From Pseudomonas sp. J452 (GTDB taxonomy: Bacteria; Pseudomonadota; Gammaproteobacteria; Pseudomonadales; Pseudomonadaceae), in the NCBI RefSeq assembly GCF_024666525.1, contig NZ_CP088294.1, positions 2,790,001-2,854,000 on the forward strand: a stretch of DNA of 64,000 bases, written 5' to 3'. Under the pieces are notes generated by a model. It was given only the letters and a program-made list of their open reading frames with translations, ran no database searches and was not told the DNA's origin. Shown one piece after another: positions 4,394-46,628 of the stretch (positions are counted from its first letter, which is position 1; each line of letters starts with the position of its first letter). The position numbers and the translations under genes are program-made.

Positions 4394-4565
4394 TTAGAGC
4401 CTGTTTAGGATTTGGCGAGCTAGAGCCATGCAAGGCGCTACGTTAGTAACAGCCTTCGGCTGGTCAAAGCGGCGAGGAAGCGGAATGTACTTTTGTACAT
4501 GAGCATTCCGAGCCTGTTTTTAACGCAGCAGGGCCGACGCGCAGCAAATCCTATGCAGGTTCTTA
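4394..4565. mobile_element. MITE family 1, copy A (stop-codon-abutting)
   Basis: Element of about 170 bp bounded by imperfect terminal inverted repeats, GAGCCTGTTTAGGATTTG at left and the complement of GAACCTGCATAGGATTTG at right, flanked by a direct TTA on both sides. The right TTA is the complement of the TAA stop codon of the acyl-CoA dehydrogenase gene. The interior (GTCGGCC, GTTAAAAACAG, GCTCAT) matches the copy at 45690. No coding capacity. Confidence 0.75.
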
Positions 4566-5726
4566 CAACAGGCGATCGAGCATGCCGCCCTGGTCCAGCA
4601 GGCGGCGGGCGATGATCACCCGCATGATCTCGTTGGTGCCTTCCAGAATCTGGTGCACGCGGCTGTCGCGCACCCAGCGCTCCAGCGGGTAGTCGTTGAG
4701 GTAACCGTAGCCGCCATGCAGCTGCAGCGCCTCGTTGCACAGGGTGAAGCAATGGTCGGTGGCGAAGCGCTTGGCCATGGCGCAGTACAGGCTGGCCTCG
4801 CCGTCGGCGTGGTCCAGCTTGTGCGCGGCCAGGCGCACCATCTGCCGGCTGGCGGTCAGGTCGGTGAGCATGTCGGCCAGCTTGAACTGCAGGGCCTGGA
4901 ACTCGCTGAGCGCCTTGCCGAACTGCTTGCGCTCCTCGACATAGCGCAGCGATTGCTCCAGCGCCGCCTGGGCCGCGCCCAGCGAGCAGCTGGCGATATT
5001 GATGCGACCGCCGTCCAGGCCCTTCATCGCGTAGACGAAGCCCTGGCCTTCCGGGCCGATGCGGTTGCCCGCCGGGATGCGCACGCCTTCGAAGGTGATG
5101 GTGCGGGTCGGCTGGGCGCGCCAGCCCATCTTCAGTTCGTTGCGGCCGTACTTCACGCCCGGCGCATCGCCCGGCACCAGGAAGCACGACACGCCCTTGG
5201 CGCCGTCCTCGCCGGTACGCGCCATGACGATCAGCACGTCGGTGCTGCCGGCGCCGGAGATAAAGCACTTGCTGCCATCGATCACGTAGTCGTCGCCGTC
5301 GCGTTTGGCGCGGGTGCGCAGGCGGGCGGCGTCGGAGCCGGCGTCCGGCTCGGTCAGGCAGTAGGAGGCCAGCAGCTCGCCCGAAGTCAGGCGCGGCAGC
5401 CAGGCATCCTTGAGCGCGGCATCGCCGAACGAGGCGAGCATCCAGGAAGCCATGTTGTGGATGGTCAGGAAGGCCGTGGTGGCCACGCAGCCGGCGGACA
5501 GCTGCTCGAAGATCAGCGAGCTGGAGAGGCGCGACAGGCCCAGGCCGCCGTCCTCTTCTTTTATGTACAGGGCCAGGTAGCCCTGCGAGGCGGCACGCTT
5601 GATCACGTCCACCGGGAAGTGGTGGTCGCGGTCCCAGTCGGCGGCGTGCGGCGCCAGTTCGTGGGCGGCAAAGGCGCTGGCACTGTGCACCAGCAGGCGT
5701 TGTTCGTCGCTCAGTTCAAAATCCAT
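4563..5726 (-). CDS. Acyl-CoA dehydrogenase (isobutyryl/short branched-chain type)
   Basis: FAD-dependent acyl-CoA dehydrogenase of 387 aa, full family length. It shows C-L-T-E-P-D-A-G-S-D-A in the FAD/substrate domain and I-L-E-G-T-N-E-I-M-R near the C-terminus, which carries the catalytic glutamate of short and branched-chain members. Its start has a GAGGAG ribosome site. Between mmsA and the hydratase gene it most likely oxidises isobutyryl-CoA to methacrylyl-CoA, passing electrons to ETF. Its TAA stop codon forms one flank of MITE copy A, so the element separates it from the downstream hydratase gene by about 200 bp. Confidence 0.88.
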   Translation of the reverse strand: MDFELSDEQRLLVHSASAFAAHELAPHAADWDRDHHFPVDVIKRAASQGYLALYIKEEDGGLGLSRLSSSLIFEQLSAGCVATTAFLTIHNMASWMLASFGDAALKDAWLPRLTSGELLASYCLTEPDAGSDAARLRTRAKRDGDDYVIDGSKCFISGAGSTDVLIVMARTGEDGAKGVSCFLVPGDAPGVKYGRNELKMGWRAQPTRTITFEGVRIPAGNRIGPEGQGFVYAMKGLDGGRINIASCSLGAAQAALEQSLRYVEERKQFGKALSEFQALQFKLADMLTDLTASRQMVRLAAHKLDHADGEASLYCAMAKRFATDHCFTLCNEALQLHGGYGYLNDYPLERWVRDSRVHQILEGTNEIMRVIIARRLLDQGGMLDRLL

Positions 5727-5811
5727 TGTGGCTCCTCAGGCTGGCGCCAGTGTGCAAAAAAAGAGGCAGGGGAGGGGCGCGCTGGATGGCCTGCACCCCC
5801 CGCCCGATCCA

Positions 5812-7323
5812 TCACTTGAGAGTGATGGTGGTGTTGACGTGACCGACTTCGTCCTCGTCCAGCCAGCGCTGGGTGACGGTCTTGGTCTGGGTATAGAACA
5901 GTACCACCTGCTTGCCGTAGGGGCCGAGGTCGCCCAGCTTGGAACCGCGCGAGCCGGTGAAGGAGAACAGCGGCACCGGCACCGGGATCGGCACGTTGAT
6001 GCCGACCTGGCCGACGTCGATCTCTTCCTGGAAGTGCCGGGCGGCGGCACCGGAGCGGGTGAAGATGGCGGTGCCGTTGCCGTTCGGGTTGGCGTTGATC
6101 AGCTCGATGGCGTCGTCCAGGGTGGCGGCGTGCATCACGCACAGCGCCGGGCCGAAGATCTCCTCCTGGTACACGCTCATCGCCGCGGTGACCCCGGAGA
6201 AGATGGTCGGGCCGATGAAGTTGCCGTTCTCGTAGCCCGGCACCTGCGGGTTGCGCCCGTCCAGTTCGAGGGTGGCGCCTTCGCTGAGGCCCTTGGCGAT
6301 CAGCCCGTCGATGCGGTCGAGGGCGGCGCAGGACACCACCGGGCCAACGTCGGTGCCCGGTTCCACGCCGGCGCCGATCTTCAGGGTCTTGGCCTTGGCC
6401 ACCAGCTCGGGCAGCCAGCTCTGCGCCTCGCCGACCAGCACCACCACCGGCAAGGCCATGCAGCGCTGGCCGGCGGCGCCGAAGGAGGCGCCGACCAGGT
6501 TGTTCAGGGTCTGCTGCTTGGGTGCGTCGGGCATCACGATGGCGTGGTTCTTCGCGCCCATCATGCACTGCGCGCGCTTGCCGTTCTGCGTGGCGCGGTT
6601 GTAGACATGGGTGCCGACCTTGGTCGAGCCGACGAAGGACACCGCCTTGATGTCCGGGTGATCGCAGATCAGGTTCACCGCCTCGGCGCCGCCGTGGATC
6701 ACGTTGAGCACACCGGCCGGGATGCCGGCTTCCAGGGCCAGTTCGACCAGGCGCATGGTCACCATCGGGTCCTGCTCGGACGGCTTGAGCACGAAGGTGT
6801 TGCCGCAGGCGATGGCCATCGGGAACATCCACAGCGGGATCATCGCCGGGAAGTTGAACGGGGTGATGCCGGCACACACGCCCAGCGGCTGCTGCAGGGT
6901 GTAGGTATCGACCCCGGCGGCGACGTTGTTGGCCAGCTCGCCCATCTGTAGGCTGCCGATATTGGCGGCATGCTCGACCACTTCCAGGCCGCGGAACACA
7001 TCGCCCTCGGCGTCGGCCAGGGTCTTGCCCTGCTCGGCGGTGAGGATGGCGGCCAGCTCCTTGATGTTCTCGCGGATCAGCTGCTGGTACTTGAGGAAGA
7101 TCCGCGCACGGGCGCCAATCGGCGTGCGCTTCCAGGTCTTGAAGGCGTTCTTCGCGGCAGCCACCGCGGCGTTCATTTCCTCGGGCGTGGCGAAGGGCAC
7201 GCGGGCCAGCACCTGCTGGGTGGCCGGGTTGACGATGTCGCGCCACTGGCTGCTCTGGGATTCGACGAATTCACCGGCGATCAGCAATTTGACCGTGGGG
7301 ATGGCGCTTGCTGGGGTTGTCAT
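5812..7323 (-). CDS. mmsA: Methylmalonate-semialdehyde dehydrogenase (CoA-acylating)
   Basis: Aldehyde dehydrogenase superfamily protein of 503 aa, the MmsA length. It has [11 protein letters not shown] at about 153-163 and the MmsA-typical nucleophile context G-A-A-G-Q-R-C-M-A with C288. It converts methylmalonate semialdehyde (valine route) to propionyl-CoA, with NAD and CoA. The start is preceded by AGGT. It is the first gene of the minus-strand cluster and is divergent from the LysR gene at 7460, across a 136-bp gap with phased TTTGCA repeats. Confidence 0.93.
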
Positions 7324-7395
7324 CTTGCGTACCTGCCGTTGGCTGCGTGGAGTGGGGCTCGGCGAGCCTTCTTAAGTTGATGCTAGCAGTGTATT

Positions 7396-7444
7396 TTTGC
7401 AGATGGCAGTCGGGGTATTTGCAAGTATATTCTGCGTTTTTGCA
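7396..7444. promoter_or_regulatory. Three phased TTTGCA repeats, possible LysR operator
   Basis: TTTGCA occurs at 7396-7401, 7418-7423 and 7439-7444, that is every 21-22 bp or two helical turns, in the gap between the divergent mmsA and lysR genes. Regular spacing on one DNA face is what a multimeric regulator would need. Inference only: no matching consensus is known to me. Confidence 0.35.
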
Positions 7445-9930: not shown

Positions 9931-10130
9931 AAACGAGTGCTTCGGGTCGGTAGCCGCCAGCAAGTAGCCGAGATATCTGCCTGGTGGAAAACGCTTTGCG
10001 GTTTTCCACCCTACATACGGATCGGCTTTTGTAGGGTGGACAAGGGTTCTTTGTCCGCCCGCTTTTCGACAATCAGCGCGAGGTCGCTAGCAGCCAGTCC
10101 GCAACATTCGTCCGTTGGGTCGGATCCGCG
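9888..10130. other. Non-coding junction with inverted repeats flanking the HNH insert
   Basis: The stretch holds an inverted pair, GGTGGAAAAC at 9983-9992 and GTTTTCCACC at 10001-10010, then GTAGGGTGGA near 10032. The ends contain related GACCC/GGCTGCT motifs (around 9905-9950 and 10085-10120) in similar order. I see no gene in it. It probably marks the right boundary of the inserted segment. A related compound palindrome is at 26022-26094. Confidence 0.5.
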
Positions 10131-12406: not shown

Positions 12407-12705
12407 CTAGAACCTGTTTCGGGTCTTTTGAGCTAGAGCCAGGCAAGGCGCAACGACCAGCGGGAGTAACAGCCGCAGGCTGGCCCAAAGGGTGAGCGCC
12501 AGCGAATCAAGTGGGCGAGGGTCGGTCGGAATAGCGGGCGACTTTACGAGCTGTAAATGAGCAGTACTCGTTTCACTCGCCCTTCGGGCCGCGCTAAAGC
12601 GCGTTAGCCGCAAGCGGCTTGCCGAGCCCAATTGATCAGCCTACGGCTGTTACTGCGTTGCAACGCAGCATGGCCGGCGATCAAGAGATCCGAGACAGGT
12701 TCTTA
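12407..12705. mobile_element. MITE family 1, copy B (long form)
   Basis: An element of about 300 bp. The left end is CTA then GAACCTGTTTCGGGTC; the right end is the complement of TAA then GAACCTGTCTCGGATC. The right TTA (12703-12705) is the stop codon of the ABC permease read on the minus strand. Its interior is longer than other copies and shares TGATCGCCGGCCAT and GCTGTAAATGAGCAG blocks with them. It fills the whole gap between the lipoprotein gene and the permease; no gene was seen. Confidence 0.75.
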
Positions 12706-13782
12706 GTCCAGGCGCTTGCTGATCCGGGTCACCGCCAGCGCCAGCAGCAGCGCCGAGAACAGCAGCAGGACCAGCACCGGTGGCCACAGCTCCAGCAGGG
12801 TGGCCTCGCGCAGCATGATGCCGCGGGCCAGGCGCAGGTAGTGGGTCAGCGGCATCAGCTCGGCGATCCACTGCGCCGCCTTGGGCATGCCGGCGAAGGG
12901 GAACATGAAGCCGGACAGCAGGATCTGCGGCAGGAAGGTGAAGAAGGCCATCTGCATGGCCTGGAACTGAGTCTGCGACAGGGTCGACAGGTACACGCCG
13001 AGGGCCAGGCTGGCGACGATGAACAGCAGCGAGGCGGCGTACAGCTCCAGCAGCGAGCCGCGCACCGGTACGCCGAACAGCCAGTAGCCGACCACCAGGA
13101 TTACCGTGATCTGCACCAGGCCGATGCCGACAAAGGGCAGCAGCTTGCCGATGGTCAGTTCCCAGGGCGATACCGGCGTGGCGATGAGCATTTCCAGGTT
13201 GCCGTGCTCGCGCTCGCGGACCAGGGCCACGGCGGTGAACAGCACCATGGTCATGGTCAGGATCACCCCGAGCAGCCCCGGCACCGTGTTCAGCGGTGCC
13301 AGGCGTTCGGGGTTGTAGAAGTTGACCACTTCGACGCCCTGGCGACTCTCCCAGCCGGGCAGCGGATAGGCCGCCAGCTGGCGCGCCGAGGCCTGTACGC
13401 TCTGGTCCGAGCCATCCACGATCAGCTGCAGCGGCGGGCGGTCCTGGCGTTGCAGGCGGGCGTCGAAGTCCGCCGGCACCACCAGCGCGGCGCTGATCTT
13501 GCCCTGGCGCAGCAACTGATCGATCTGCTGCGGCGAACTCAGGCGGTAGCGCAGGTCGAGCACCTGGCTGGAGGCAATTTCCGCCACCGCTTCGCGTGAG
13601 CTGGCAGTGTTGGCCTGGTCCAGCACGGCCGCTTCGATGCCGCGCACGTCCATGTTGATGGCGTAGCCGAACAGCACCAGTTGCAGCAGCGGGATGCCGG
13701 CGATCATGGCGAAGGTCAGCTTGTCGCGGCGCAGCTGGCGCAGCTCCTTGATCACGATGGCACTCAGGCGGCGCAGGTTCAT
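12703..13782 (-). CDS. ABC-2 type permease of a drug/lipid exporter (YbhS/YbhR-like)
   Basis: Inner-membrane permease of 359 aa with one N-terminal helix (I-P-L-L-Q-L-V-L-F-G-Y-A-I), a large periplasmic domain (about 40-170), and five C-terminal helices, the ABC-2 MdrPQ architecture. The start overlaps the ATPase stop by 4 nt, so translation is coupled. E. coli has two such permeases (YbhS and YbhR); only one is encoded here, so it would act as a homodimer. Its TAA stop is a flank of MITE copy B. Confidence 0.88.
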   Translation of the reverse strand: MNLRRLSAIVIKELRQLRRDKLTFAMIAGIPLLQLVLFGYAINMDVRGIEAAVLDQANTASSREAVAEIASSQVLDLRYRLSSPQQIDQLLRQGKISAALVVPADFDARLQRQDRPPLQLIVDGSDQSVQASARQLAAYPLPGWESRQGVEVVNFYNPERLAPLNTVPGLLGVILTMTMVLFTAVALVREREHGNLEMLIATPVSPWELTIGKLLPFVGIGLVQITVILVVGYWLFGVPVRGSLLELYAASLLFIVASLALGVYLSTLSQTQFQAMQMAFFTFLPQILLSGFMFPFAGMPKAAQWIAELMPLTHYLRLARGIMLREATLLELWPPVLVLLLFSALLLALAVTRISKRLD

Positions 13783-29254: not shown

Positions 29255-29400
29255 TTAGAACCGGTCTCGGATCTCTTGATCGTCGGCCATCCTGCGTTGA
29301 AATTGGGCTCGGGCTGCTCATTTACAGCTCGTAAACTCCGCGCCCTCGCCCAATTTCGCCTTGCCTGGCTCTAGCTCAAAAAATCCTAAACAGGTTCTTA
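29255..29400. mobile_element. MITE family 1, copy C
   Basis: A 146-bp element flanked by TTA on both sides. The left end is GAACCGGTCTCGGATC; the right end is the complement of GAACCTGTTTAGGATT. The right TTA (29398-29400) is the complement of the TAA stop codon of the binding-protein gene. It is inserted in the opposite orientation to copies A and E relative to the abutting gene, so either end can face the stop codon. Confidence 0.8.
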
Positions 29401-32984: not shown

Positions 32985-33015
32985 CTCTGTTGGCCACCTT
33001 GCGTTGGCTGCTGCG

Positions 33016-35141: not shown

Positions 35142-35181
35142 CAGGTCGGTCTCGTTCTTGTTGTAACCGATGACGGTGCGA

Positions 35182-35499
35182 TCAGAAGCGGATGCGCCCG
35201 GTGAAGGCGTCCTTGAGCATCACCCAGTCGCCCATCAGGCTGTACAGCGGGTACTGGAAGGTGGCCGGGCGGTTCTTCTCGAAGACGAAGTGGCCAACCC
35301 AGGCAAAGCCATAGCCGGCGACCGGCAGGGCCAGCAGCCAGAGCCATTGCTGGGTCAGCAGGCTGTAGCCGAGGATGGTCAGGACCAGCAGGCTGCCGAC
35401 ATAGTGCAGGCGCCGGCAGATATCGTTGCTGTGTTCCTGCAGGTAATAGGGATAGAACTCGGCAAAGCTCTGGTAGCGTTCGGTGGGTGCGGCGCTCAT
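35182..35499 (-). CDS. Mpo1/DUF962-family membrane protein
   Basis: A 105-aa protein. It begins R-Y-Q-S-F-A-E-F-Y-P-Y-Y-L-Q-E-H-S-N, the DUF962 hallmark with the H-x-x-N-x-x-x-R pattern, followed by two hydrophobic helices and G-H-F-V-F-E-K-N-R-P-A-T-F. Yeast Mpo1 of this family is an Fe(II)-dependent dioxygenase of 2-hydroxy fatty acids in alpha-oxidation. The ATG at 35499 has a perfect GGAGG site; the frame open to 35562 is not used. Upstream of an HD-domain gene. Confidence 0.88.
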   Translation of the reverse strand: MSAAPTERYQSFAEFYPYYLQEHSNDICRRLHYVGSLLVLTILGYSLLTQQWLWLLALPVAGYGFAWVGHFVFEKNRPATFQYPLYSLMGDWVMLKDAFTGRIRF

Positions 35500-35624
35500 G
35501 GCGTACCTCCTGTCATTGTCGACGGACAGTGTAGGGTGGCTGTCTTCTGCGGCCAGTGACATACAGTGCCAGTTTAGTATCCTTGCGCCGCCAGCCTGCG
35601 CTTGAACAGAACAAGAATTAGCCT

Positions 35625-36626: not shown

Positions 36627-36666
36627 GGTTTGATCCGGCCGGGCAGCATTGCGCTGATCGGCTGTC

Positions 36667-36693
36667 AGCCCTCTGCGTCAGGCGCAGAGGGCT
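36667..36693. terminator. Hairpin between convergent araC and phaJ genes
   Basis: Perfect 11-bp stem AGCCCTCTGCG/CGCAGAGGGCT with a 5-base loop, midway between the two converging stop codons. There is no strong T-run on either side, so its strength as a terminator is uncertain. Confidence 0.55.
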
Positions 36694-36699
36694 ATCCAC

Positions 36700-37170
36700 T
36701 CAGCCGACGGTCACCTGCGGCATGGCCGGCATGGTTACGGTCTGCTCGGCGCGCGGGGCTAGCACTTCGGCTTCGCCATCGACCACTTGCTCAGCGTTCT
36801 GGTTGAACACCCGGGTGGCCAGGCGCACGCGGCCCTTGGGCAGCTTTTCCAGCACTTCCAGTTTTACCGTCAGGGTGTCGCCCAGTTTCACCGGACGGGT
36901 GAACTTGAGCTGCTGGCCGAGGTAGATGGTGCCCGGGCCGGGCAGGCGGCAGGCGATGGCCGCGCTGATCAGTGCGCCGCTGAACATGCCGTGGGCGATA
37001 CGTTCCTTGAACATCGTTTCGGCGGCGAAGGCGGCGTCCAAGTGGACCGGGTTGTTGTCGCCGGATACGGCGGCGAACAGCTGGATGTCGCGCTCTTCAA
37101 CGGTCTTGTCGAAGCTGGCCTGCTGGCCGACCTCGAGGGCTTCGTAGGGGATATTGGTGACCTGGGTCAT
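36700..37170 (-). CDS. phaJ: (R)-specific enoyl-CoA hydratase, MaoC domain
   Basis: A 156-aa single hotdog MaoC-like hydratase. The signature G-D-N-N-P-V-H-L-D-A-A-F-A at about 38-50 holds the catalytic Asp/His pair, followed by R-I-A-H-G-M-F-S-G. Members convert trans-2-enoyl-CoA from beta-oxidation to (R)-3-hydroxyacyl-CoA for PHA synthesis. The start M-T-Q-V-T-N overlaps the lipase stop codon by 4 nt. From memory, P. aeruginosa places phaJ3 next to the same lipase and the fadD pair. Confidence 0.88.
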   Translation of the reverse strand: MTQVTNIPYEALEVGQQASFDKTVEERDIQLFAAVSGDNNPVHLDAAFAAETMFKERIAHGMFSGALISAAIACRLPGPGTIYLGQQLKFTRPVKLGDTLTVKLEVLEKLPKGRVRLATRVFNQNAEQVVDGEAEVLAPRAEQTVTMPAMPQVTVG

Positions 37171-38126
37171 GCGGGCTCCTGGACAGGTGTGGGGCACTGA
37201 CGGCTGTGGGCGAGGGTCGCGTCCAGCCAGTCGAGCAGGTAAGTGGTCACCTCGTCGCGGTTGCTCTCGTTGAGCAGCTCGTGGCGGGCGTCGGGGTAGA
37301 TCTGCAGTTGCACGTCCTTGAGGCCGGCGGCGCGCAGCGCACCGGCCAGATCAGCAAGACGCTTGCCCTCGCTGACCGGGTCACGGTCACCGCCGATCAC
37401 CAGCAGCGGCAGGTCGCTGTCGATCTGTGCCAGGTTGTCGACCTGGCTGATGTACTGCATGCCACCGAGCAGGTCGATCCACAGCTGGTTGCTGCAGGGG
37501 TGGCCGCAGAACGGGTCGTGGATGTACTTGTCGACTTCTGCCGGGTCGCGGCTGAGCCAGTCGAAGGCCGTACGGTTGGGCTTGAAGGCCTTGTTGAACG
37601 AGCCGAAGGAGAGGAAGTCGATCAGCTTGCTGTGGCCGCCCGGCCCCTGACGCCAGCGCTCGGCACGGGCAATCAGGCTAGCCAGCTTGTACAGCCGCGG
37701 CGACTGATAATTGGAGCCGGAGAGGATGGCGCCCTGCAGGCTGCAACTGTGGCGCATCAGGTAGGCCTGGCCGATGTAGCTGCCCATGCTGTGTGCCAGC
37801 AGGAAGATCGGCGCCTGCGGGTGCTGCTGGCGGATATGGTGATTGAGGCTGGCCAGGTCGCCGACCACCTTGCTCCAGCCGTCGGCATCGGCGTAATGGC
37901 CGAGTACGCCGCGTTCGGCGGTGCGGCCGTGGCCGCGTTGGTCGAGGGCGTACACGGCAAAGCCGTCGGCGACCAGGCTCTCGGCCAGGCGCGCATAGCG
38001 GGCGCTGTGCTCGGCCATGCCGTGGGCGATCATCACCACGGCCTTGGGCGGGCTCTCGCCATGCCAGTGGTTGACCAGCAGGGCGCTGCCGTCAGTGGCG
38101 CTGAGCCAGAAGTCTTGGTGCTGCAT
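37167..38126 (-). CDS. Monoacylglycerol lipase-like alpha/beta hydrolase
   Basis: A 319-aa serine hydrolase of the lysophospholipase/MGL group. It has H-G-M-A-E-H-S-A-R-Y (oxyanion loop), Y-A-L-D-Q-R-G-H-G-R-T, nucleophile elbow L-A-H-S-M-G-S, D in G-G-D-R-D-P-V and final His in P-D-A-R-H-E-L-L-N-E. The start M-Q-H-Q-D-F-W has AAGGA upstream; the frame upstream to 38384 overlaps the next gene. It releases fatty acids from glycerides, fitting the adjacent phaJ and fadD genes. Confidence 0.88.
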   Translation of the reverse strand: MQHQDFWLSATDGSALLVNHWHGESPPKAVVMIAHGMAEHSARYARLAESLVADGFAVYALDQRGHGRTAERGVLGHYADADGWSKVVGDLASLNHHIRQQHPQAPIFLLAHSMGSYIGQAYLMRHSCSLQGAILSGSNYQSPRLYKLASLIARAERWRQGPGGHSKLIDFLSFGSFNKAFKPNRTAFDWLSRDPAEVDKYIHDPFCGHPCSNQLWIDLLGGMQYISQVDNLAQIDSDLPLLVIGGDRDPVSEGKRLADLAGALRAAGLKDVQLQIYPDARHELLNESNRDEVTTYLLDWLDATLAHSRQCPTPVQEPA

Positions 38127-38193
38127 GGCGGGTCCTTGTGCCCAGGATGTCGCGGCATTGTGCATGGGCGGGGCGGGGCAGGCCAAGTACTGT

Positions 38194-38925
38194 TCAGCGC
38201 ACTGGATTGGCGTATCGCTGGAGAATGCGCGTGTATTCGCCGCTGCTGTGCAGTTCGGCCAGGCCGCGGGCGAAGATGGCTGCCCAGTCCGGTTGTCCGG
38301 GTTTCTGGGCGGTGAAACCGACAAATAGCGGAATGCGCTCCAGGGCTGGCTCCTGCCAGTGCAGGCGGCCGCGCAAAGCGGCATCCTGGTTGATCAGGTA
38401 GTCGCCGACGGTACGTTCCAGCAACACCAGATCGAAACGCCGCGCCGCCAGTTTGCGCAGGTTGCTGATGTCGTCCACGGCTTCTTCGGCGCTGAAGCCC
38501 GAGCGCAGCAGGTTGGGTGGATAGCCATAGCCGCGCACGATGCCGACGCGCTGGCCACGCAATTCGCTCAGGCTCTGATAGGCCACCGGTTTGCTCTTGC
38601 GTACGAAGAAGCCCAGCTGGCTGTAGAACAGCGGGCGCGAAGCGATCAGCTGTTCCTCGATGATTTCCTGTGGCCACAAGGCCAGCGCGCCCTGGTAATT
38701 GCCACTGCGCAGGTCGGCGCGCACCCGTGCCCAGGGCAGGAAGTCCACCTGCGCGACATGGCCCTGGGTAGCGAAGGCGCGTACGGTCAGCTCGACGATG
38801 CTGCCGCCGGTCGGCAGCGCCTGCGAGCAGTACGGCGGGTATTCCAGGGTGGCTAGGCGCAGCTCTGCGGCCACAGGCAGGCTCAGGCAGAGGGAGAGCA
38901 GTAGGGCGGACAGGCTCAGGCGCAT
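38194..38925 (-). CDS. Periplasmic solute-binding protein, family 3
   Basis: A 243-aa SBP_bac_3-type protein with a clear signal peptide (cleavage near V-A-A-E-L). The domain starts A-T-L-E-Y-P-P-Y-C-S and includes F-L-P-W-A-R-V-R-A-D-L, W-P-Q-E-I-I and V-G-I-V-R-G-Y-G-Y-P. It is an orphan: no permease or ATPase gene is nearby. It may act as a stand-alone polar amino acid or signal sensor. A second orphan of this type is at 52536. Confidence 0.85.
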   Translation of the reverse strand: MRLSLSALLLSLCLSLPVAAELRLATLEYPPYCSQALPTGGSIVELTVRAFATQGHVAQVDFLPWARVRADLRSGNYQGALALWPQEIIEEQLIASRPLFYSQLGFFVRKSKPVAYQSLSELRGQRVGIVRGYGYPPNLLRSGFSAEEAVDDISNLRKLAARRFDLVLLERTVGDYLINQDAALRGRLHWQEPALERIPLFVGFTAQKPGQPDWAAIFARGLAELHSSGEYTRILQRYANPVR

Positions 38926-39123
38926 TAGGACGGGTCGTGATGACTAACTATTAGCTATAGCTCAACAGAGTGGTGATCGCTCTGCAATCATTGGCAAGAT
39001 TCATGCGGTCAATGAGTCAGTCGTGGGTATTTGCCTGCGTCCGTGGAGCTGTTAAGTTCCGGGGCAGCCCGGCTGTTGTCTTGACGGTCGGTTAGGATTT
39101 TCAGGTCAAGGGGAATAACAACA

Positions 39124-40812
39124 ATGCAACCTGACTTTTGGGACGACAAACGCCCGGCTGGGGTCTCCAATCAACTCGATCTCTCCACCTACCGCTCGGT
39201 GGTCGAAGTGTTCGAGCGTTCCTGCAAGAAGTTCGCTGACCGACCGGCGTTCAGCAACCTCGGTGTCACGCTGACCTATGCCGAGCTGGAGCGCCATTCA
39301 GCGGCGTTCGCCGGCTGGTTGCAGAAAAACACCGACCTCAAGCCCGGCGACCGTATCGCCGTGCAGATGCCCAATATCCTGCAGTACCCGATTGCCGTGT
39401 TCGGTGCCATGCGCGCCGGCCTGATCGTGGTCAACACCAACCCGTTGTACACCGTGCGCGAGATGCGTCACCAGTTCAATGATGCTGGTGTACGGGCCTT
39501 GGTTTACCTCAATACCTTCGGCAAGTCGGTGCAGGACGTGCTGCCCGACACCCCGATCGAGTACCTGATCGAAGCGCGCATGGGCGACCTGATGCCGAGC
39601 CTCAAGGGCTGGCTGGTCAATACCCTGGTGAATAAGGTCAAGAAGCTGGTGCCGGACTACAGCCTGCCGCAGGCACTGGCATTCAAGGACGTGCTGCGCA
39701 ATGGTCGCGGGCATGCACTGAAACCGGCCAAGGTCGCTTTCGACGATGTCGCCGTGCTGCAGTACACCGGTGGCACCACGGGCGTGGCCAAGGGCGCCAT
39801 GCTGACCCATGGCAACCTGATCGCCAACATGCAGCAGGTGCACAACTGCCTGCAGCAGACGGCGGAAGACGGCCAGCCGCTGATGAAGGAGGGTGGCGAG
39901 ATCATGATCGCGCCGCTGCCGCTCTACCATATCTATGCCTTCACCGCGAACTGCATGTGCATGATGGTCAGCGGCAACCACAATGTGCTGATCACCAATC
40001 CGCGCGACATTCCGGGCTTCGTCAAGGAGCTCGGCAAGTGGCAGTTCTCCGCGTTTCTGGGGCTCAACACCCTGTTCGTTGCGCTGATGGACAATCCCGA
40101 GTTCAAGAACCTCGATTTCTCCCGGCTCAAGCTGACCAACTCCGGCGGCACCGCGCTGGTTAAGGCCACGGCCGAGCGCTGGCAGCAGATGACCGGTTGC
40201 GCCATTGTCGAAGGCTACGGCCTCACCGAAACTGCGCCGGTCGCCACCACCAACTGCTACGGCAAGCTGGCGCGCCTGGGCACCGTGGGCATTCCGGTGG
40301 CAGGCACGGCGCTCAAGGTGATCGATGACGACGGTGTCGAGCAGCCGATCGGCGAACGTGGCGAGCTGTGCATCAAGGGCCCGCAGGTGATGAAAGGCTA
40401 CTGGCAGCGCCCGGAAGCCACCGCCGAGGTACTGGATGCCGAAGGCTGGTTCAAGACCGGTGACGTGGCGGTGATCGACCCGGACGGCTATGTACGCATC
40501 GTCGACCGCAAGAAGGACATGATCATCGTCTCTGGCTTCAACGTGTACCCCAACGAGATCGAGGACGTGGTCATGGCTCATCCGAAGGTTGCCAGCTGCG
40601 CGGCCATCGGTGTGCCGGACGAGAAATCCGGCGAGGCGGTCAAGCTGTTCGTCGTGCCGCGCGAGGGCGGTATCAGCGTGGAAGAGTTGAAGGCCTTCTG
40701 CCGGGAGAACTTCACCGGCTACAAGGTGCCCAAGCACATCGTCTTCAGGGACGCCTTGCCAATGACACCGGTCGGCAAGATTCTGCGTCGCGAACTGCGC
40801 GATATCGCCTAA
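39124..40812 (+). CDS. fadD2: Long-chain fatty acyl-CoA ligase, FadD2
   Basis: ANL-superfamily ligase of 562 aa. It has the P-loop Y-T-G-G-T-T-G-V-A-K-G, Y-G-L-T-E-T-A-P, the FACS motif beginning D-R-K-K-D-M-I-I-V-S-G-F-N-V, and the catalytic Lys in P-V-G-K-I-L-R-R. It activates fatty acids at the inner membrane for beta-oxidation. Position upstream of a second fadD matches the Pseudomonas fadD2-fadD1 pair. The ATG at 39124 follows AAGGGGAATAACAACA. It ends with an intrinsic terminator. Confidence 0.95.
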   Translation: MQPDFWDDKRPAGVSNQLDLSTYRSVVEVFERSCKKFADRPAFSNLGVTLTYAELERHSAAFAGWLQKNTDLKPGDRIAVQMPNILQYPIAVFGAMRAGLIVVNTNPLYTVREMRHQFNDAGVRALVYLNTFGKSVQDVLPDTPIEYLIEARMGDLMPSLKGWLVNTLVNKVKKLVPDYSLPQALAFKDVLRNGRGHALKPAKVAFDDVAVLQYTGGTTGVAKGAMLTHGNLIANMQQVHNCLQQTAEDGQPLMKEGGEIMIAPLPLYHIYAFTANCMCMMVSGNHNVLITNPRDIPGFVKELGKWQFSAFLGLNTLFVALMDNPEFKNLDFSRLKLTNSGGTALVKATAERWQQMTGCAIVEGYGLTETAPVATTNCYGKLARLGTVGIPVAGTALKVIDDDGVEQPIGERGELCIKGPQVMKGYWQRPEATAEVLDAEGWFKTGDVAVIDPDGYVRIVDRKKDMIIVSGFNVYPNEIEDVVMAHPKVASCAAIGVPDEKSGEAVKLFVVPREGGISVEELKAFCRENFTGYKVPKHIVFRDALPMTPVGKILRRELRDIA

Positions 40813-40862
40813 AAGCCCTATGCTGCCTGCTGTCCGGAGAAGTTTTCCGGATAGTCAAGAAA

Positions 40863-40892
40863 ATGACCGTCCAGCATTGGGTGGTCATTTTT
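40863..40892 (+). terminator. Terminator after fadD2
   Basis: Stem ATGACC...GGTCAT (40863-40868 with 40883-40888) extended by CCA/TGG across a GT/GT bulge and followed by TTTTT. It separates fadD2 from fadD1, so the two genes can be expressed independently. Confidence 0.7.
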
Positions 40893-41051
40893 ATGACCGT
40901 TCGGGGCAGGTTTGGTGCTAGTCGGTGTTTGGCAAAGCTGCTACTCTCGGCCCGATTTTTTGCCGACCCGTCGGCGAAAACGCACACCAATCACAAAAAA
41001 TAACCGCCATTGCGCGGTGTAAATAAGCTGTTGCTCAGGAGTAGGCTTTTC

Positions 41052-42743
41052 ATGACCGAAAACTTCTGGAAGGACAAGTACCCTGTCGGGATCGCTGCCG
41101 AGATCGATGCCGACCAGTACCCCAATATTCAGACCGTACTGAAACAGTCCTGCCAACGCTTTGCCGACAAGCCTGCGTTCAGCAACCTGGGCAAGACACT
41201 CACCTACGGTGAGTTGTACGAGTTGTCCGGCGCCTTTGCCGCCTATCTGCAGAATCACACCGACCTTCAGCCCGGCGACCGCATCGCCGTGCAGCTGCCC
41301 AACGTCCTGCAATACCCGGTCGTGGTATTCGGTGCCCTGCGTGCCGGCCTGGTGGTGGTCAACACCAACCCGCTGTACACCGCGCGGGAGATGGAACACC
41401 AGTTCAACGACTCCGGCGCCAAGGCCCTGGTCTGCCTGGCCAACATGGCCCACCTGGCCGAGGAAGTGCTGCCCAAGACCGGCATCAAGCACGTGGTGGT
41501 CACCGAAGTCGCCGACATGCTGCCGCTGCTCAAGCGCACCCTGGTCAACTTCGTCGTCAAGCATGTGAAGAAGATGGTCCCGGCCTACAATCTGCCGCAG
41601 GCCGTATCGATCAACCAGGCCCTGGCCAAGGGCCGTGGCAAGCCGGTCAAGGAAGCCAGCCCGCACAACGGCGATGTCGCCGTACTGCAGTACACCGGCG
41701 GCACCACCGGCGTGGCCAAGGGTGCGATGCTGACCCACCGCAACCTGATCGCCAACATGCTGCAATCCAAGGCGCTGATGGGCTCCAACCTCAACGAGGG
41801 TTGTGAGATCGTCATCTGCCCGCTGCCGCTGTATCACATCTACGCCTTCACCTTCCATTGCATGGCGATGATGCTCACCGGCAACCACAACATCCTCATC
41901 ACCAACCCGCGCGACCTGCCGGGCACCGTGAAGGAACTGGGCAACTGGAAGTTCAGCGCCTTCGTCGGCCTCAACACCCTGTTCGTCGCCCTGTGCAACA
42001 GCGAAGACTTCCGCAAGCTGGACTTCTCCGCGCTGAAGCTGACCCTGTCTGGCGGCATGGCCCTGCAACTGGCTGCGGCCGAGCGCTGGAAAGCCGTCAC
42101 CGGCTGCGCCATCTGCGAAGGTTACGGCATGACCGAAACCAGCCCGGTGGTGTCGGTCAACCCGTTCCAGAACATCCAGATCGGCACCATCGGCATCCCG
42201 GTTCCGTCGACCCTGTGCAAGGTCATCGACGACGCCGGCAACGACCTGCCGATGGGCGAGCGTGGCGAGCTGTGCGTCAAGGGCCCGCAGGTGATGAAAG
42301 GCTACTGGCAGCGCCAGGAAGCCACCGACGAGATGCTCGACAAGGATGGCTGGCTGAAGACCGGCGACATCGCCGTGATCCAGGATGACGGCTTCATGCG
42401 CATCGTCGACCGCAAGAAGGACATGATTCTGGTGTCCGGCTTCAACGTCTACCCGAACGAGCTGGAAGACGTGCTGGTGACCCTGCCGGGCGTGCTGCTG
42501 TGCGCCGCCATCGGCGTGCCGGACGAGAAGTCCGGCGAGGCGATCAAGGTCTTCGTGGTGGTCAAACCAGGCGAAAGCCTGACCAAGGAGCAGGTGATGG
42601 AGCACATGCGTGCCAACCTTACCGGCTACAAGGTGCCGCGCACTGTCGAGTTCCGTGACAGCCTGCCGACCACCAACGTCGGCAAGATCCTGCGCCGCGA
42701 GCTGCGTGACGAAGAGCTGAAGAAGATCGCCGCCAAGGCCTGA
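41052..42743 (+). CDS. fadD1: Long-chain fatty acyl-CoA ligase, FadD1
   Basis: ANL ligase of 563 aa, a close paralogue of FadD2. It has Y-T-G-G-T-T-G-V-A-K-G, Y-G-M-T-E-T-S-P, D-R-K-K-D-M-I-L-V-S-G-F-N-V and N-V-G-K-I-L-R-R. The start M-T-E-N-F-W-K-D was preferred over the frame from 41010 because of the AGGAG site and alignment with FadD2. FadD1 is the main long-chain ligase in pseudomonads. A GC-rich terminator follows. Confidence 0.96.
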   Translation: MTENFWKDKYPVGIAAEIDADQYPNIQTVLKQSCQRFADKPAFSNLGKTLTYGELYELSGAFAAYLQNHTDLQPGDRIAVQLPNVLQYPVVVFGALRAGLVVVNTNPLYTAREMEHQFNDSGAKALVCLANMAHLAEEVLPKTGIKHVVVTEVADMLPLLKRTLVNFVVKHVKKMVPAYNLPQAVSINQALAKGRGKPVKEASPHNGDVAVLQYTGGTTGVAKGAMLTHRNLIANMLQSKALMGSNLNEGCEIVICPLPLYHIYAFTFHCMAMMLTGNHNILITNPRDLPGTVKELGNWKFSAFVGLNTLFVALCNSEDFRKLDFSALKLTLSGGMALQLAAAERWKAVTGCAICEGYGMTETSPVVSVNPFQNIQIGTIGIPVPSTLCKVIDDAGNDLPMGERGELCVKGPQVMKGYWQRQEATDEMLDKDGWLKTGDIAVIQDDGFMRIVDRKKDMILVSGFNVYPNELEDVLVTLPGVLLCAAIGVPDEKSGEAIKVFVVVKPGESLTKEQVMEHMRANLTGYKVPRTVEFRDSLPTTNVGKILRRELRDEELKKIAAKA

Positions 42744-42761
42744 TGCCTGCGCTGCAATGAT

Positions 42762-42785
42762 AAAGCCCCGCTTCGGCGGGGCTTT
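42762..42785 (+). terminator. Terminator after fadD1
   Basis: Perfect 10-bp stem AAAGCCCCGC/GCGGGGCTTT with a TTCG tetraloop, 19 bp after the fadD1 stop codon. Confidence 0.92.
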
Positions 42786-42844
42786 GTCGTTTCTGCGCGG
42801 TGCTGCTTCCAAGGAGGGCAGGGCCCGCGCCTGAAAAGAGGCAT

Positions 42845-43020
42845 TCAGGGGCTGCTTATGATCTCGCGAGATAGAGAAAAACAGCCGAGGAAGCGAAGTT
42901 TACGAGCCGTAATGAGCATGGCTCGTTTCACTCGCCCTTTGGGGCGCGCTAAACAAGCCGCGCTCCAAGGCTGTTTTGCGCCGAATAGCCGGCGTGCCGC
43001 AGATCGTAGGCAGGTGCTCA
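42845..43020. mobile_element. MITE family 1, copy D (divergent)
   Basis: A 176-bp element flanked by TCA on both sides. The right end is the complement of GCACCTGCCTACGATC and the left end GGGGCTGCTTATGATC. The right TCA (43018-43020) is the complement of the TGA stop codon of the cyclophilin gene. It shares GAGTGAAACGAGCCATGCTC-type interior blocks with copy B. Confidence 0.7.
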
Positions 43021-43584
43021 GAGCTTCTTGGCAGAGATGATCAGCACCGGCTGGCGCGGTACGTTCTGGTGCATGCCGCGGTTGCCGGTCGGTACCTGGG
43101 CGATCTTGTCGACCACTTCCATGCCGCGCACTACCTTGCCGAACACCGCATAGCCGAAGTCGCGGCCGCCGTGGTCGAGGAAGGCGTTGTCCTTGTGGTT
43201 GATGAAGAACTGGCTGGTGGCCGAGTCGACGACCTGGGTGCGGGCCATGGCCAGGGTGCCGCGCAGGTTGCGCAGGCCGTTGTCGGCCTCGTTCTTGATC
43301 GGATCCTGGGTGTCTTTCTCGCCCATGTCGGCATCGAAGCCGCCGCCCTGGACCATGAAACCGGGGATCACCCGGTGGAACTGGGTGCCGTCGTAGAAAC
43401 CGGATTCCACATAGGCGAGGAAGTTCTTGGCGCTGATCGGCGCCTTGTCGGCGGCCAGCTCGATCTCGACTTCACCGAGGCTGGTGGTCAGCAGCACATG
43501 GGGATTCTCGGTGGCAGTCTCGGCGGCCATCAGGTTGAGGCTGAGCAGCAGGCTGCAGGCGGCGAGGGCAAGTTTGTTCAGCAT
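43018..43584 (-). CDS. ppiA: Periplasmic peptidyl-prolyl cis-trans isomerase (cyclophilin A)
   Basis: A 188-aa cyclophilin with a signal peptide (cleavage near L-M-A-A-E). Active-site motifs are [19 protein letters not shown] and S-Q-F-F-I-N. It catalyses proline isomerisation in periplasmic proteins. The start M-L-N-K-L-A is 39 bp inside the longest frame and begins the signal peptide. Its TGA stop is one flank of MITE copy D. The next gene upstream (hydrolase) ends 17 bp before its start, so they may be co-transcribed. Confidence 0.92.
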
Positions 43585-43600
43585 GGGTAGGTCCTTGTTT

Positions 43601-44392
43601 TCAGGGTTTTTCGACTGAGCCAATAAAACTCAGCAGGGTCGTGTTGAACTGATCGGGCTGATCCATCGGTGTGGCATGGCGCGACTGCGGGATGACCACC
43701 AGGCGCGCGTCGGGCAGCCGCTCGACATAGCGTTCCTTGTGCGCCACCGGGGTGTAGTCGCGGTCACCGCTGATCACCAGCGTAGGACAGGTGATATTGC
43801 CCAGGTGTTCCCAGACGCTCCAGCCGATGATGGCATCCAGGCTGGCCAAATAGGCGCGTTTGTCGTTCTGCGGCCAGCGCTGCTCGATCTTCTGCCGCAG
43901 CTCGGCCTGTTCCGGACGCGGGAAGAGGATGCGTCCCAGGCCCTTGCCGATGGTCTCCAGGCTGAGCAGGCGCGAGAGTGCCCAGCGCTTACCCAGCTGC
44001 CACCAGTCGCCCAGGCTCTTGGCGCGCACTTCCGGGGTGCTGTTGACGATGGTCAGGCTATGCAGCAGTTCAGGGCGCTCGACGCCAAGCTGGAAGGCAA
44101 TCATGCCGCCCATGGAAATACCGACCAGGTGTACCTTGCCGAGCTTGAGGTGCTCGATCAGGGCGGCCACGTCGTCGGCAAACTGCGCAATGCTGTAGGC
44201 CTCGTGCGGCTTGCCGGAACGGCCGTGGCCACGCACGTCGAGGGCGATCACCCGGTGGCTGCGGCTGAGCAGCGGCACCTGGTATTCCCAGTCACGGATG
44301 CTTGAGCCCAGACCGTGTACCAGCAGCAGTGGTGTGCCCTGGCCATGGTCCTCGAAGTGCAACTGGCAGCCGGCGTGTTCGAAATAAGACAT
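43601..44392 (-). CDS. Alpha/beta hydrolase
   Basis: A 263-aa hydrolase. It has [24 protein letters not shown], nucleophile elbow L-V-G-I-S-M-G-G, acid residue in [10 protein letters not shown] and final His in [10 protein letters not shown]. It resembles enol-lactone hydrolase/esterase types (PcaD-like), but no pathway partners are present. The start M-S-Y-F-E-H is 60 bp inside the longest frame. A LysR gene ends 10 bp upstream. Confidence 0.85.
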
Positions 44393-44402
44393 GGCTGGGC
44401 CC

Positions 44403-45329
44403 TCAGTTGGCGGGTAGGGGCGCGGCGAACGGCGCATCGAGTGGGGCGGCATCGAAGGTCTTGATCAGTTCGACGAGAATCTGCGTGGCCGGGCCCAGCG
44501 GCTTTTCCTTGTTGGCATACAGCGAGAAGGAGGGGTTGCGCGTGCCGCCCTGGGCCAATGGCAGGGGCTTGAGCAGGCCTTCGCGCAATTCGCGCTCGAT
44601 CAGGTGACGCGGCAGCCAGGCGAAGCCCAGGCCGCTGCTGACGAATGAGGCGGCGGTGGGCAGGCTGCCAACCGTCCAGCGCTGCTCGGCGCCGAGCCAG
44701 CCGACATCGCGCGGCTGGGTGCGGCCGGAGTCGCGGATTACCACCTGCATCTGGCTCTCCAGGTCCTGGAAGGTCAGTTCGCGCTGCAGGCGGTGCAGGG
44801 CGTGATCAGGATGGGCGACGGCGACGAACTCGACGCTGCACAGCTCGGTGCCCAGATAGCCGGAGATATTTAGGCTGGTGACAGCCAGGTCGGCGGTGCC
44901 TTCCAGCAACACTTCCTCGACTCCCGACAGCACTTCTTCACGCAGGCGCACGCGGCAGCCGCGGCTTTGCGGGATAAAGGCGGAGAGGGCGCGCACCAGG
45001 CGTGCGTTGGGGTAGGCGGCGTCGACCACCAGGCGCACTTCGGCTTCCCAGCCCTGTTCCATGTAGTGGGCCAGGTCTTCCAGCTGGCTGGCCTGCTTGA
45101 CCAGTTGCCGCGAGCGCCGTAGCAGCACTTCGCCGGCCTCGGTCAGCACCGCCTTGCGCCCGTCGATGCGCAGCAGCGGCACGCCGAGCTGTTCCTGCAT
45201 GCGTGCCACCGTGTAGCTCACCGAGGATTGCGAGCGATGCAGCACATCGGCGGCCTGGGCGAAGCCGTTGTGGTCGACCACCGCCTGCAGCGTGCGCCAT
45301 TGATCAAGGGTGACACGGGGCGCTTTCAT
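44403..45329 (-). CDS. LysR-family transcriptional regulator
   Basis: A 308-aa LysR regulator. The helix-turn-helix is at about 20-45 (F-A-Q-A-A-D-V-L-H-R-S-Q-S-S-V-S-Y-T), and the effector domain includes L-A-V-T-S-L-N-I and G-L-G-F-A-W-L-P-R-H. The start M-K-A-P-R-V-T-L was chosen since the frame upstream to 45725 overlaps the divergent small gene. It lies just upstream of the hydrolase gene on the same strand and divergent from 45378. Target unknown. Confidence 0.88.
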   Translation of the reverse strand: MKAPRVTLDQWRTLQAVVDHNGFAQAADVLHRSQSSVSYTVARMQEQLGVPLLRIDGRKAVLTEAGEVLLRRSRQLVKQASQLEDLAHYMEQGWEAEVRLVVDAAYPNARLVRALSAFIPQSRGCRVRLREEVLSGVEEVLLEGTADLAVTSLNISGYLGTELCSVEFVAVAHPDHALHRLQRELTFQDLESQMQVVIRDSGRTQPRDVGWLGAEQRWTVGSLPTAASFVSSGLGFAWLPRHLIERELREGLLKPLPLAQGGTRNPSFSLYANKEKPLGPATQILVELIKTFDAAPLDAPFAAPLPAN

Positions 45330-45377
45330 CGTTGCTTCCTCTTCTCTACTCTTGGTGTCCCCTGAAGGAGACGCTGC

Positions 45378-45692
45378 ATGAAAAAGCTTTGCCTGGCTCT
45401 GGTCACTCTGTTGCCGCTCACCGCCGTGGCTTATCCGGTAGAAATGAACAAGCAGATGAATGGCGCCGAAGTGTCGGCGACGCTTGAGGATATCGACAGC
45501 GATATCGGCTCGGTGATGCTCTACAACTACGGTCAGCGCGCTGCCCAGTGCAAGGCCACGTTCCGCAATGGCCCGGATGCGCCGCGTACGCGCAAGATCG
45601 ATCTGGCGCCGGGGCAGAACAGCAACCTGACGGTGAAGTTCGGCCGTCAGGTGATCAAGCTGCGTGTCGACCTGACCTGCAAGCCCATCTGA
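45378..45692 (+). CDS. Small secreted protein of unknown function
   Basis: A 104-aa protein with a signal peptide (M-K-K-L-C-L-A-L-V, cleavage near A-V-A-Y) and a compact beta-rich remainder with two Cys (Q-C-K-A-T-F and L-T-C-K-P-I) that could form a disulfide. GAAGGAG ribosome site upstream. Its TGA stop codon forms the left flank of MITE copy E. I recognise conserved Pseudomonas homologues but no function. Confidence 0.75.
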   Translation: MKKLCLALVTLLPLTAVAYPVEMNKQMNGAEVSATLEDIDSDIGSVMLYNYGQRAAQCKATFRNGPDAPRTRKIDLAPGQNSNLTVKFGRQVIKLRVDLTCKPI

Positions 45693-45835
45693 GAACCTGT
45701 TTACGATCTCCTGGCCGTCGGCCATACGGCGTTAAAAACAGCCTCGAAATGCTCATTTACAGCTCGTAAACTCCGCTTCCTCGGCTATTTTTGCCTTGTC
45801 TGGCTCTAGTCCAAAAGATCGTAAACAGGTTCTGA
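45690..45835. mobile_element. MITE family 1, copy E (best-preserved)
   Basis: A 146-bp element with direct TGA on both flanks and nearly perfect terminal inverted repeats: GAACCTGTTTACGATC at left, GATCGTAAACAGGTTC at right. The left TGA is the stop codon of the 45378 gene. Interior blocks GGCCGTCGGCC, GTTAAAAACAGCCTCG and GCTCATTTACAGCTCG are shared with copies A and C. Confidence 0.88.
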
Positions 45836-45887
45836 AGCGTTAAGCAGAGCTGTTGGCAGCCTAGTGCGGGGCTGCCTACAAATCAAC

Positions 45888-45930
45888 TTAATCGATAGGT
45901 AATAGCGGTTTTTTGCGCTTTTTAATCGAT
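45888..45930. promoter_or_regulatory. Duplicated TTAATCGAT upstream of azoR
   Basis: TTAATCGAT occurs at 45888-45896 and 45922-45930, in the AT-rich leader of azoR. ATCGAT is itself palindromic. The placement 60-100 bp upstream of the start suggests a regulator or promoter element; no regulator gene is adjacent. Confidence 0.35.
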
Positions 45931-45989
45931 CTGTATCACCCTAATCTGCCCCCATCGACGCACAACAACCCCCGATGGAGGTAAGCCAA

Positions 45990-46589
45990 ATGTCCCGTGT
46001 CCTGGTTATCGAAAGCAGCGCCCGTAAAGAAGGTTCCGTATCCCGTCAGCTGACCGCCGACTTCATCGGCCAGTGGCAAGCCGCCAATCCGCAGGATCAG
46101 ATCCAGGTCCGCGACCTGGCCGTGGAGCAGGTGCCGCATCTGGATATCGACCTGCTCAGCGGTTGGATGAAGCCGACCGAGCAGCAGAACGAAGTGGAGA
46201 AGGCCGCTGCCGCCCGTTCCAACCTGCTCACCGACGAACTGCTGGCCGCCGATGTACTGGTCCTGGCGGCACCGATGTACAACTTCGCCATCCCCAGCAC
46301 CCTGAAATCCTGGCTAGACCATGTGCTGCGTGCCGGCGTCACCTTCAAATACACCGAAGCCGGCCCGCAAGGCCTGCTGACTGGCAAGCGCGCCTATGTG
46401 CTGACCGCCCGTGGCGGCGTCTACAGCGGCAGCGCGATGGATCACCAGGAGCCCTACCTGCGCCAGGCGCTGGCCTTCGTCGGCATCCACGACGTGACCT
46501 TCATCCATGCCGAAGGCCTGAACATGGGCGCCGAGTTCCTCGAAAAGGGCCTGGCCCAGGCGCGTGAGCAGCTGGCCAAGGTCGCCTGA
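45990..46589 (+). CDS. azoR: FMN-dependent NADH-azoreductase
   Basis: Flavodoxin-fold quinone/azo reductase of 199 aa, usual AzoR length. It has S-S-A-R-K-E-G-S-V-S-R (FMN phosphate binding), A-A-P-M-Y-N-F-A-I-P-S-T-L-K (FMN site) and the A-R-G-G-V-Y-S-G loop. It reduces quinones and azo compounds by two electrons with NADH. The start M-S-R-V-L-V has a GGAGG site 9 nt upstream. Its TGA stop abuts MITE copy F. Confidence 0.93.
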   Translation: MSRVLVIESSARKEGSVSRQLTADFIGQWQAANPQDQIQVRDLAVEQVPHLDIDLLSGWMKPTEQQNEVEKAAAARSNLLTDELLAADVLVLAAPMYNFAIPSTLKSWLDHVLRAGVTFKYTEAGPQGLLTGKRAYVLTARGGVYSGSAMDHQEPYLRQALAFVGIHDVTFIHAEGLNMGAEFLEKGLAQAREQLAKVA

Positions 46590-46628
46590 AAACCTGTCTA
46601 CGATCAAAAGATCGTAAACAGGCTCTGT
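46587..46628. mobile_element. MITE family 1, copy F (terminal repeats only)
   Basis: A collapsed element: AACCTGTCTACGATC, then AAAA, then GATCGTAAACAGGCTC, that is the two terminal repeats joined with no interior. The left flank TGA is the azoR stop codon; the right flank is TGT. It forms a perfect-looking hairpin and could function as an RNA structure after azoR. Confidence 0.75.

Follow-up and report, generated by a model that had tools for sequence, protein, structure and literature searches.

Six MITE Copies at Stop Codons

The DNA analyzed here, called the window, is a stretch of 64,000 nucleotides of Pseudomonas sp. J452 (contig NZ_CP088294.1, positions 2,790,001 to 2,854,000). It carries six copies of a miniature inverted-repeat transposable element (MITE), each of which adjoins the stop codon of a gene. 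The copies had been noticed in an earlier sequence-only reading. Re-measurement of their spans placed all six where that reading had put them, with the same flanking triplets; the body of each element is given below without these triplets.

The first copy (4394..4565, body 4397-4562, 166 bp, minus strand as set relative to the copy at 45693) is flanked by TTA/TTA, and its right flank is the TAA stop of a minus-strand gene (4563-5726). The right flank is also the stop codon in the long copy at 12407..12705 (body 12410-12702, 293 bp, minus strand, CTA/TTA; gene 12703-13782), in the copy at 29255..29400 (body 29258-29397, 140 bp, plus strand, TTA/TTA; gene 29398-30465) and in the copy at 42845..43020 (body 42848-43017, 170 bp, minus strand, TCA/TCA; cyclophilin gene 43018-43623). 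The copy at 45690..45835 (body 45693-45832, 140 bp, plus strand, TGA/TGA) served as the reference, and its left TGA is the stop codon of an open reading frame (ORF) at 45378-45692. The last copy is a remnant consisting of the two ends alone (46587..46628, body 46590-46625, 36 bp, no strand assigned, TGA/TGT). Its left flank is the stop of a flavodoxin-like (azoR-like) gene at 45975-46589. In six of six copies the flank is the last codon of the adjoining ORF, and the reading frames were left intact by the insertions, as claimed before. The closed frames are open for 390, 435, 383, 203, 108 and 214 codons, in the order of the copies. The window has 124 CTNAG sites, 43 of them non-coding; of these 43, 11 are stops of called genes, element-flanked sites included.

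Pfam assigned the adjoining products to acyl-CoA dehydrogenase, ABC-2 permease, NMT1/THI5-like binding protein, cyclophilin and flavodoxin-like families. This agrees with the names dehydrogenase, permease, binding protein and ppiA (for the cyclophilin) given earlier; azoR was the reading's own name for the flavodoxin-like product. The 104-amino-acid product of ORF 45378-45692 matched no Pfam family at E ≤ 1e-5. The interior blocks described as common to the family do exist, but the likeness is looser than claimed: the sequence GCTCATTTACAG occurs exactly, on either strand, in three of the six copies (12410, 29258 and 45693) and is absent from the 36-bp copy.

Copies across the Genome and the Genus

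The genome (4.86 Mb, one contig) was searched with the DNA of three window copies and with an end pattern. The end pattern including TNA, with up to two mismatches, gave 84 forward and 86 reverse matches (170 in total), compared with 0 forward matches and 1 reverse match for a reversed control pattern. All queries together yielded at least 111 match clusters, each of which was fetched with its flanks. Seventy-eight copies with paired ends were found and three with weak ends were dropped; 74 of the 111 clusters contributed to the 75 copies kept. These span 36-293 bp, 39 of them measuring 136-144 bp, and none was called inside a gene. The elements are short, transposase-free, numerous and intergenic, which bears out their identification as MITEs.

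The flanking triplet is the exact stop of a gene called by a home-made gene finder in 52 of the 75 copies. Three further copies overlap a TAG stop with a one-base offset and were excluded from this count. From 11 further genomes of the genus 60 near full-length loci were fetched, with at most 7 scored per genome (places in G093, G012 and G008 are among those left out). Five of the 60 lacked an end pair, and 39 of the remaining 55 copies abut a stop. Pooled over the 12 genomes, 91 of 130 analyzed copies lie at stops, at 89 distinct sites. The sequence-only reading had named a majority of copies lying away from stop codons as the result that would speak against it; the majority lies at stops.

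An adjacency produced by mis-called genes, or by a few old insertions shared by descent, is hardly credible. The gene calls are indeed home-made, and some adjoining ORFs are short, such as the frame at 45378-45692, which encodes 104 amino acids. Nevertheless, a test that needs no gene finder gave the same picture: 53 of the 75 copies have a flanking triplet that terminates an ORF of 100 or more codons, whereas C-TNA-G sites of these regions, coding ones included, do so at a rate of about 0.19 per site. The number of distinct sites likewise speaks against descent from a few insertions. Among the copies recovered by the DNA queries, for which no TNA was needed, 40 of 60 sit at stops.

Target Site and Duplication

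The triplet TNA stands for TAA, TGA, TTA or TCA, and each of these reads TAA or TGA on one strand. At least one flank is TNA in 75 of 75 copies of the genome, both flanks in 54 and identical triplets in 42, counts obtained with a search pattern that itself contained TNA. The corresponding numbers for the relatives are 51, 27 and 23 of 55. The sequence logo around TNA showed C at 0.73 and G at 0.63 for copies at stops, and C at 0.65 and G at 0.65 elsewhere. The fuller target is C-TNA-G, with a similar preference in both groups. Stop codons are natural targets, given this preference and the reading of TNA on one strand as TAA or TGA. Where the two flanks of a stop copy differ (43 cases), the one away from the stop is no longer TNA in 30.

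The genome G118 is about 93% identical over the syntenic stretch and provided the comparison of empty and filled sites. Its sequence there is CCCATC TGA GGTG, one TGA corresponding to the two that enclose the element at 45690 in the window. This empty site shows that the 3-bp target duplication is real, as had been expected from the flanks. The copy at 46587 is also lacking in G118, where the stop is TAA. The azoR-like gene of distant relatives ends at the same place without an element in three of 12 aligned loci (L189, L192 and L195). The copy at 29255 is absent from the syntenic place in G118, with other sequence nearby, and the copy at 42845 is common to both genomes. As a separate observation, two stop-docked copies share their flank in two genomes each (L280/L291 and L289/L295) and are probably old insertions.

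Element Ends, Family and Transposase

Both the element ends GAACCTGTTTACGATC and the TNA target match the IS1031 subgroup of IS5, the subgroup being assigned via the ISLrh repeat and not by a transposase tree. The part of PMC12016507 that deals with ISLrh, a member of the IS1031 subgroup of IS5, gives repeats GAACCTGTCTAGTATCT and a 3-bp TNA duplication. This repeat was found on a plasmid copy (L426).

Other bacteria contain autonomous elements whose 17-bp ends are the same. L436, a broken remnant in G063 that has an A-type left end, led to apparently intact plasmid elements in Moraxella (GAACCTGTTCACGATT, TAA/TAA) and Pandoraea (TTA/TTA). A scan of named genomes yielded at least 80 autonomous loci, of which 55 had clear ends and measured 828-964 bp; 54 of these 55 are flanked by TNA. 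Clear ends were missing in 25 of the 80 loci of this first set and in 6 of 27 loci added to it. Some elements, for example L460 and L463, carry GARCCTGTTTACGATCT at both ends, and others have related ends. L450 and L451 carry an annotated IS5 family transposase, which is read over two frames. Three features of IS5/IS1031 membership were thus found: matching terminal inverted repeats, the TNA duplication and, in other bacteria, a partner transposase split over two overlapping frames.

The earlier statement that the window holds no transposase was confirmed, with no match to PF13340 in the whole genome and two matches to PF01609, both outside the window. Neither PF01609 locus qualified as partner: the first has one A-like end close by, of score 17.4 against 9.7 for the best end opposite, and neither showed a convincing pair of ends. 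The PF13340 loci of the genus (30 and 20 more) were also rejected, having other ends wherever ends were found, except for the L436 remnant. A pattern scan of 67 viral_contigs loci gave no convincing autonomous element. The full-length relative called for by the sequence-only reading was found in other bacteria; in the genome itself nothing matched the Pandoraea transposase half at E ≤ 1e-30. From the ends we infer that the MITE would have been moved by an IS1031-type transposase that is not found in the genome today.

Stop Association Compared with Chance

The expected number of stop copies was calculated by confining each copy to its own intergenic region and weighting the sites by the C-TNA-G preference. 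In this model, in which 10 of the 130 copies were unusable, 62.7 of 120 copies are expected at stops and 90 were observed (P 2.5e-13). Counting stops against such an expectation had been proposed with the initial observation and gave an excess. Earlier versions for the genome's own copies gave 46 of 74 observed versus 23.8 expected without weights, and 52 of 71 versus 32.6 with weights. The observed and expected numbers were 40 of 43 versus 31.3 in convergent regions, 26 of 36 versus 17.7 and 24 of 30 versus 13.8 in tandem contexts, and 0 of 11 versus 0 in divergent regions.

We regard it as probable that these are non-autonomous MITEs with IS5/IS1031-type ends, whose C-TNA-G target together with survival explains most of the stop association. 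A transposase not found in the present genome would move the element. The insertion enters TNA, preferably within C-TNA-G, with a duplication of three bases that the empty site shows. TAA and TGA stops qualify as targets by their sequence. Landing at a stop would be harmless because the duplicated triplet restores the stop codon. Copies at stops would survive because protein, promoter and probably terminator stay untouched, and insertions in genes, promoters and terminators would be lost. Selection would then keep the stop-side triplet and let the far triplet decay. The harmless spread of a transposon would thus have a simple reason, namely a 3-bp target that is a stop on one strand and is rebuilt by duplication. 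The sequence-only reading had suggested that target choice recognizes stop-like triplets or is tied to translation termination. The first part stands in the form of TNA. A link to translation termination is not required, as C-TNA-G and confinement predict about 63 of the 90 stop copies.

Distance from the Stop and Autonomous Elements

The rate per weighted site was 0.144 at the stop, 0.081 at 1-10 nt, 0 at 11-40 nt and at most 0.016 further out, as compared with 272 element-free gene ends; the first two rates rest on 52 and 4 copies, and no difference between them is claimed. This profile would also fit a transposition complex that is guided to the ends of translated genes, with its polarity fixed, by some feature besides C-TNA-G, such as DNA exposed, or a host factor present, at termination. 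Targeting is still conceivable since a real excess over the motif model is left, yet we consider directed insertion of this kind rather improbable. Selection on terminators could explain the empty zone at 11-40 nt, and a short stretch between the end of the coding region and the terminator in which insertion does no harm would suffice for the rates at the stop and at 1-10 nt.

The autonomous elements bear on the same question, and their existence with matching ends makes insertion preference and survival separately measurable. In the first set 13 of 54 lie at the stop of an ORF of 100 or more codons. An enlarged set without duplicates gave 19 of 71, two of which (L460 and L579) share their right flank and may be one site. 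Of the control C-TNA-G sites 45 of 402 lie at such stops. The higher share of the autonomous elements is a point for some insertion preference, or for survival acting on them too. The autonomous element on the Pandoraea plasmid adjoins the TAA of a 147-amino-acid gene, which also fits guided insertion. On the other hand, 52 of the 71 autonomous copies lie elsewhere, and so do 19 of the 25 with ACGATCT ends like those of the MITE, 6 being at stops. In 11 scanned plasmid loci of lactobacillus, pediococcus and Moraxella, GA-type ends were found for 9 elements, and 0 of these 9 abut an ORF of at least 100 codons. Autonomous elements at stops face them with the left end in 7 cases and with the right end in 12, unlike the MITE described below.

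The MITE exceeds the first autonomous set in its share at stops of ORFs with 100 or more codons (53 of 75 versus 13 of 54, P 1.7e-7, in an unmatched comparison). The autonomous elements, which bear a transposase, are probably younger than the MITE copies. Their weaker stop share suggests that survival contributes as well as insertion. A side observation concerns G613 (L581-L589 without L582), in which a 947-bp element with GAGCCTATCCGG ends is present eight times; five of these copies adjoin the stop of an ORF with 100 or more codons.

Polarity at Stops

The orientation of each copy was determined by its interior, left meaning the left end of the element at 45693-45832. The left end faces the stop in 42 of 50 copies of the genome and in 35 of 39 copies of the relatives, or 77 to 12 in the pooled set (binomial P 9e-13). 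The 50 copies were scored out of 52 at stops, two being without a usable match. The copy at 29255..29400 belongs to the minority with the right end facing the stop. The earlier statement that the stop can be faced by either end is correct, yet it masks this strong bias, which the first note missed. The bias tracks gene direction on either strand, and it does so in each half of the chromosome. No bias was found for the genome's own non-stop copies in tandem context (7 to 6).

The motif is palindromic; therefore the cause of the polarity lies inside the element or in its use. Three candidates were tried and rejected. Replication direction does not account for the bias, since the element keeps to gene direction on either strand in each chromosome half, the halves being arbitrary and not true replichores. 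The core as the cause was not established: B-type MITEs with a similar core gave 9 to 2 at first and 14 to 7 with 20 more loci. As for the ends, the MITE left end pairs with the insertion sequence (IS) left end in 50 of 71 ungapped comparisons (11 opposite, 10 ties), yet the IS elements themselves show 7 left to 12 right at stops.

Several points count against the explanation by target and survival. The 77-to-12 polarity is not predicted by a palindromic motif. The excess over the motif model stays significant overall and also in convergent regions (P 8e-5), where no promoter needs protection. No copy of the genome lies 11-40 nt past a stop, although weighted sites are plentiful there. In addition, the weights were derived from the family's own non-stop sites, the gene calls are home-made, and the hosts of the MITE set differ from those of the autonomous set. 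The pattern is real and strong, and the known target rule and selection probably explain it for the most part. The residual excess and the strong polarity hint at a further constraint, which may concern the strand of the hairpin that is transcribed.

Core and Hairpin

The interior of the element folds as a hairpin flanked by A5 and T5 tracts. This core comprises element positions 27-115 (45716..45804 in the reference copy, plus strand). MITEs with other ends hold a similar core across the genus, and one of these other end types has partner elements there. Such cores lie between several other terminal repeats at L175-L185, L298-L327 and L543-L562, which suggests that IS5-like elements of the genus have swapped cores and ends.

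Positive selection could keep the polarity if the core, in one orientation only, supplied the 3' end of the upstream gene as a terminator or as an mRNA-protecting or processing hairpin. The left-end preference at stops, its absence from non-stop tandem copies and its agreement with gene direction would fit such a functional retention. The hairpin shows paired changes, with at least two Watson-Crick types in 21 of 54 pairs over the whole element (90 sequences). It is enclosed by the A5/T5 tracts, and the favored strand has a slightly better T-tail score (2.65 versus 2.56, P 0.0003). The occurrence of similar cores between other ends points in the same direction. Against this, a consensus scan of 45600-46700 found no terminator-like site, although hairpin and T5 tract are present. 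The core also folds worse on the strand transcribed in the favored orientation (-22.0 versus -27.2 kcal/mol for the other strand, 39 copies), and the 14-to-7 polarity of the B-type MITEs is not significant. Furthermore, paired changes in palindromes can arise by template switching without selection. We therefore judge functional retention unlikely. The poorer fold of the mRNA strand may come from selection against a long perfect hairpin after the stop, from descent from few masters, or from template switching. Rfam gave no match at E up to 1 over the four elements within 28900-47000.

A wider proposal is a polar 3'-end module that would dock on stops, restore them by duplication and be retained solely when oriented so that the upstream gene obtains a functional mRNA end, with a similar core taken up by MITEs with different ends. 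We put it forward as a tentative possibility. If the polarity were functional, many genes of the genus would have received their 3' ends from a mobile element, which would be relevant for annotation, for studies of mRNA decay and for selfish DNA turned useful.

Two observations on base pairing in A-type copies stand beside these results. Non-Watson-Crick deviations in the terminal inverted repeats are mostly A-C on the sense strand, that is G-U on the other (79 to 21). Interior deviations run in the opposite direction (176 to 225), and a few fixed positions dominate them.

Comparison with Known Systems

Tn7 attaches at the 3' end of a gene via a protein that reads one gene. The closest relatives of the present MITE are IS5/IS1031 elements (ISLrh; L450, L460 and L463), which share ends GARCCTGTTTACGATCT or close to it and the TNA duplication and have partner elements of about 830-960 bp. 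The window copies differ from them in having no transposase, in holding a hairpin core, in lying far more often at stops and in their fixed polarity. The B-type MITEs of the genus, presumably IS427-like, have ends GGCTCTGTACGAAAA, partner elements such as L336 and L345 and a similar core. They abut TAG stops, formed by TA and their own first G, in 24 of 49 cases versus 10 of 71 CTAG control tests per strand; compared with the MITE of the window their stop share is weaker.

MITEPsy1 of Pseudomonas syringae is likewise an IS5-like pseudomonad MITE with a stop-like target (CTAG or YTAA) and a 4-bp duplication (PMC3189936). It differs in its length of 100 bp, its ends and its six copies, and stop-codon docking is not mentioned in the excerpt of that paper. 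The R0 and R2 repeats of P. fluorescens SBW25 are described in the relevant part of PMC2718517 as hundreds of intergenic hairpin repeats whose inverted repeats match insertion sequences. They are of other sizes, and the likeness is one of description, not of compared cores. SPRITE, according to an excerpt of PMC10969869, is mobile or repeated DNA of terminator-like form, again a likeness by description and not by sequence. In the literature searched no account of MITEs docking at stop codons was found, and no absence beyond it is claimed.

Other Features of the Window

Two guanidine-I riboswitches (Rfam RF00442) lie on the minus strand at 30537-30648 and 31994-32106. Each is located upstream of one of two tandem NMT1/THI5-like binding-protein genes, and a MITE copy sits on the stop of one of them. 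A biotin-dependent carboxylase of 1213 amino acids is encoded nearby at 22293-25934. The window also contains a long inverted repeat pair (47699-47964 and 54161-54481) at a distance of 6.2-6.5 kb, which consists of 140 nt at 96% identity followed by pieces of 69 and 62 nt. A second inverted pair, GGTGGAAAACGC, was found at 9983-10014 and 26024-26055, and repeats of CCCTCTCCCAT occur at 1116-1154, 22167-22207 and 29202-29244.

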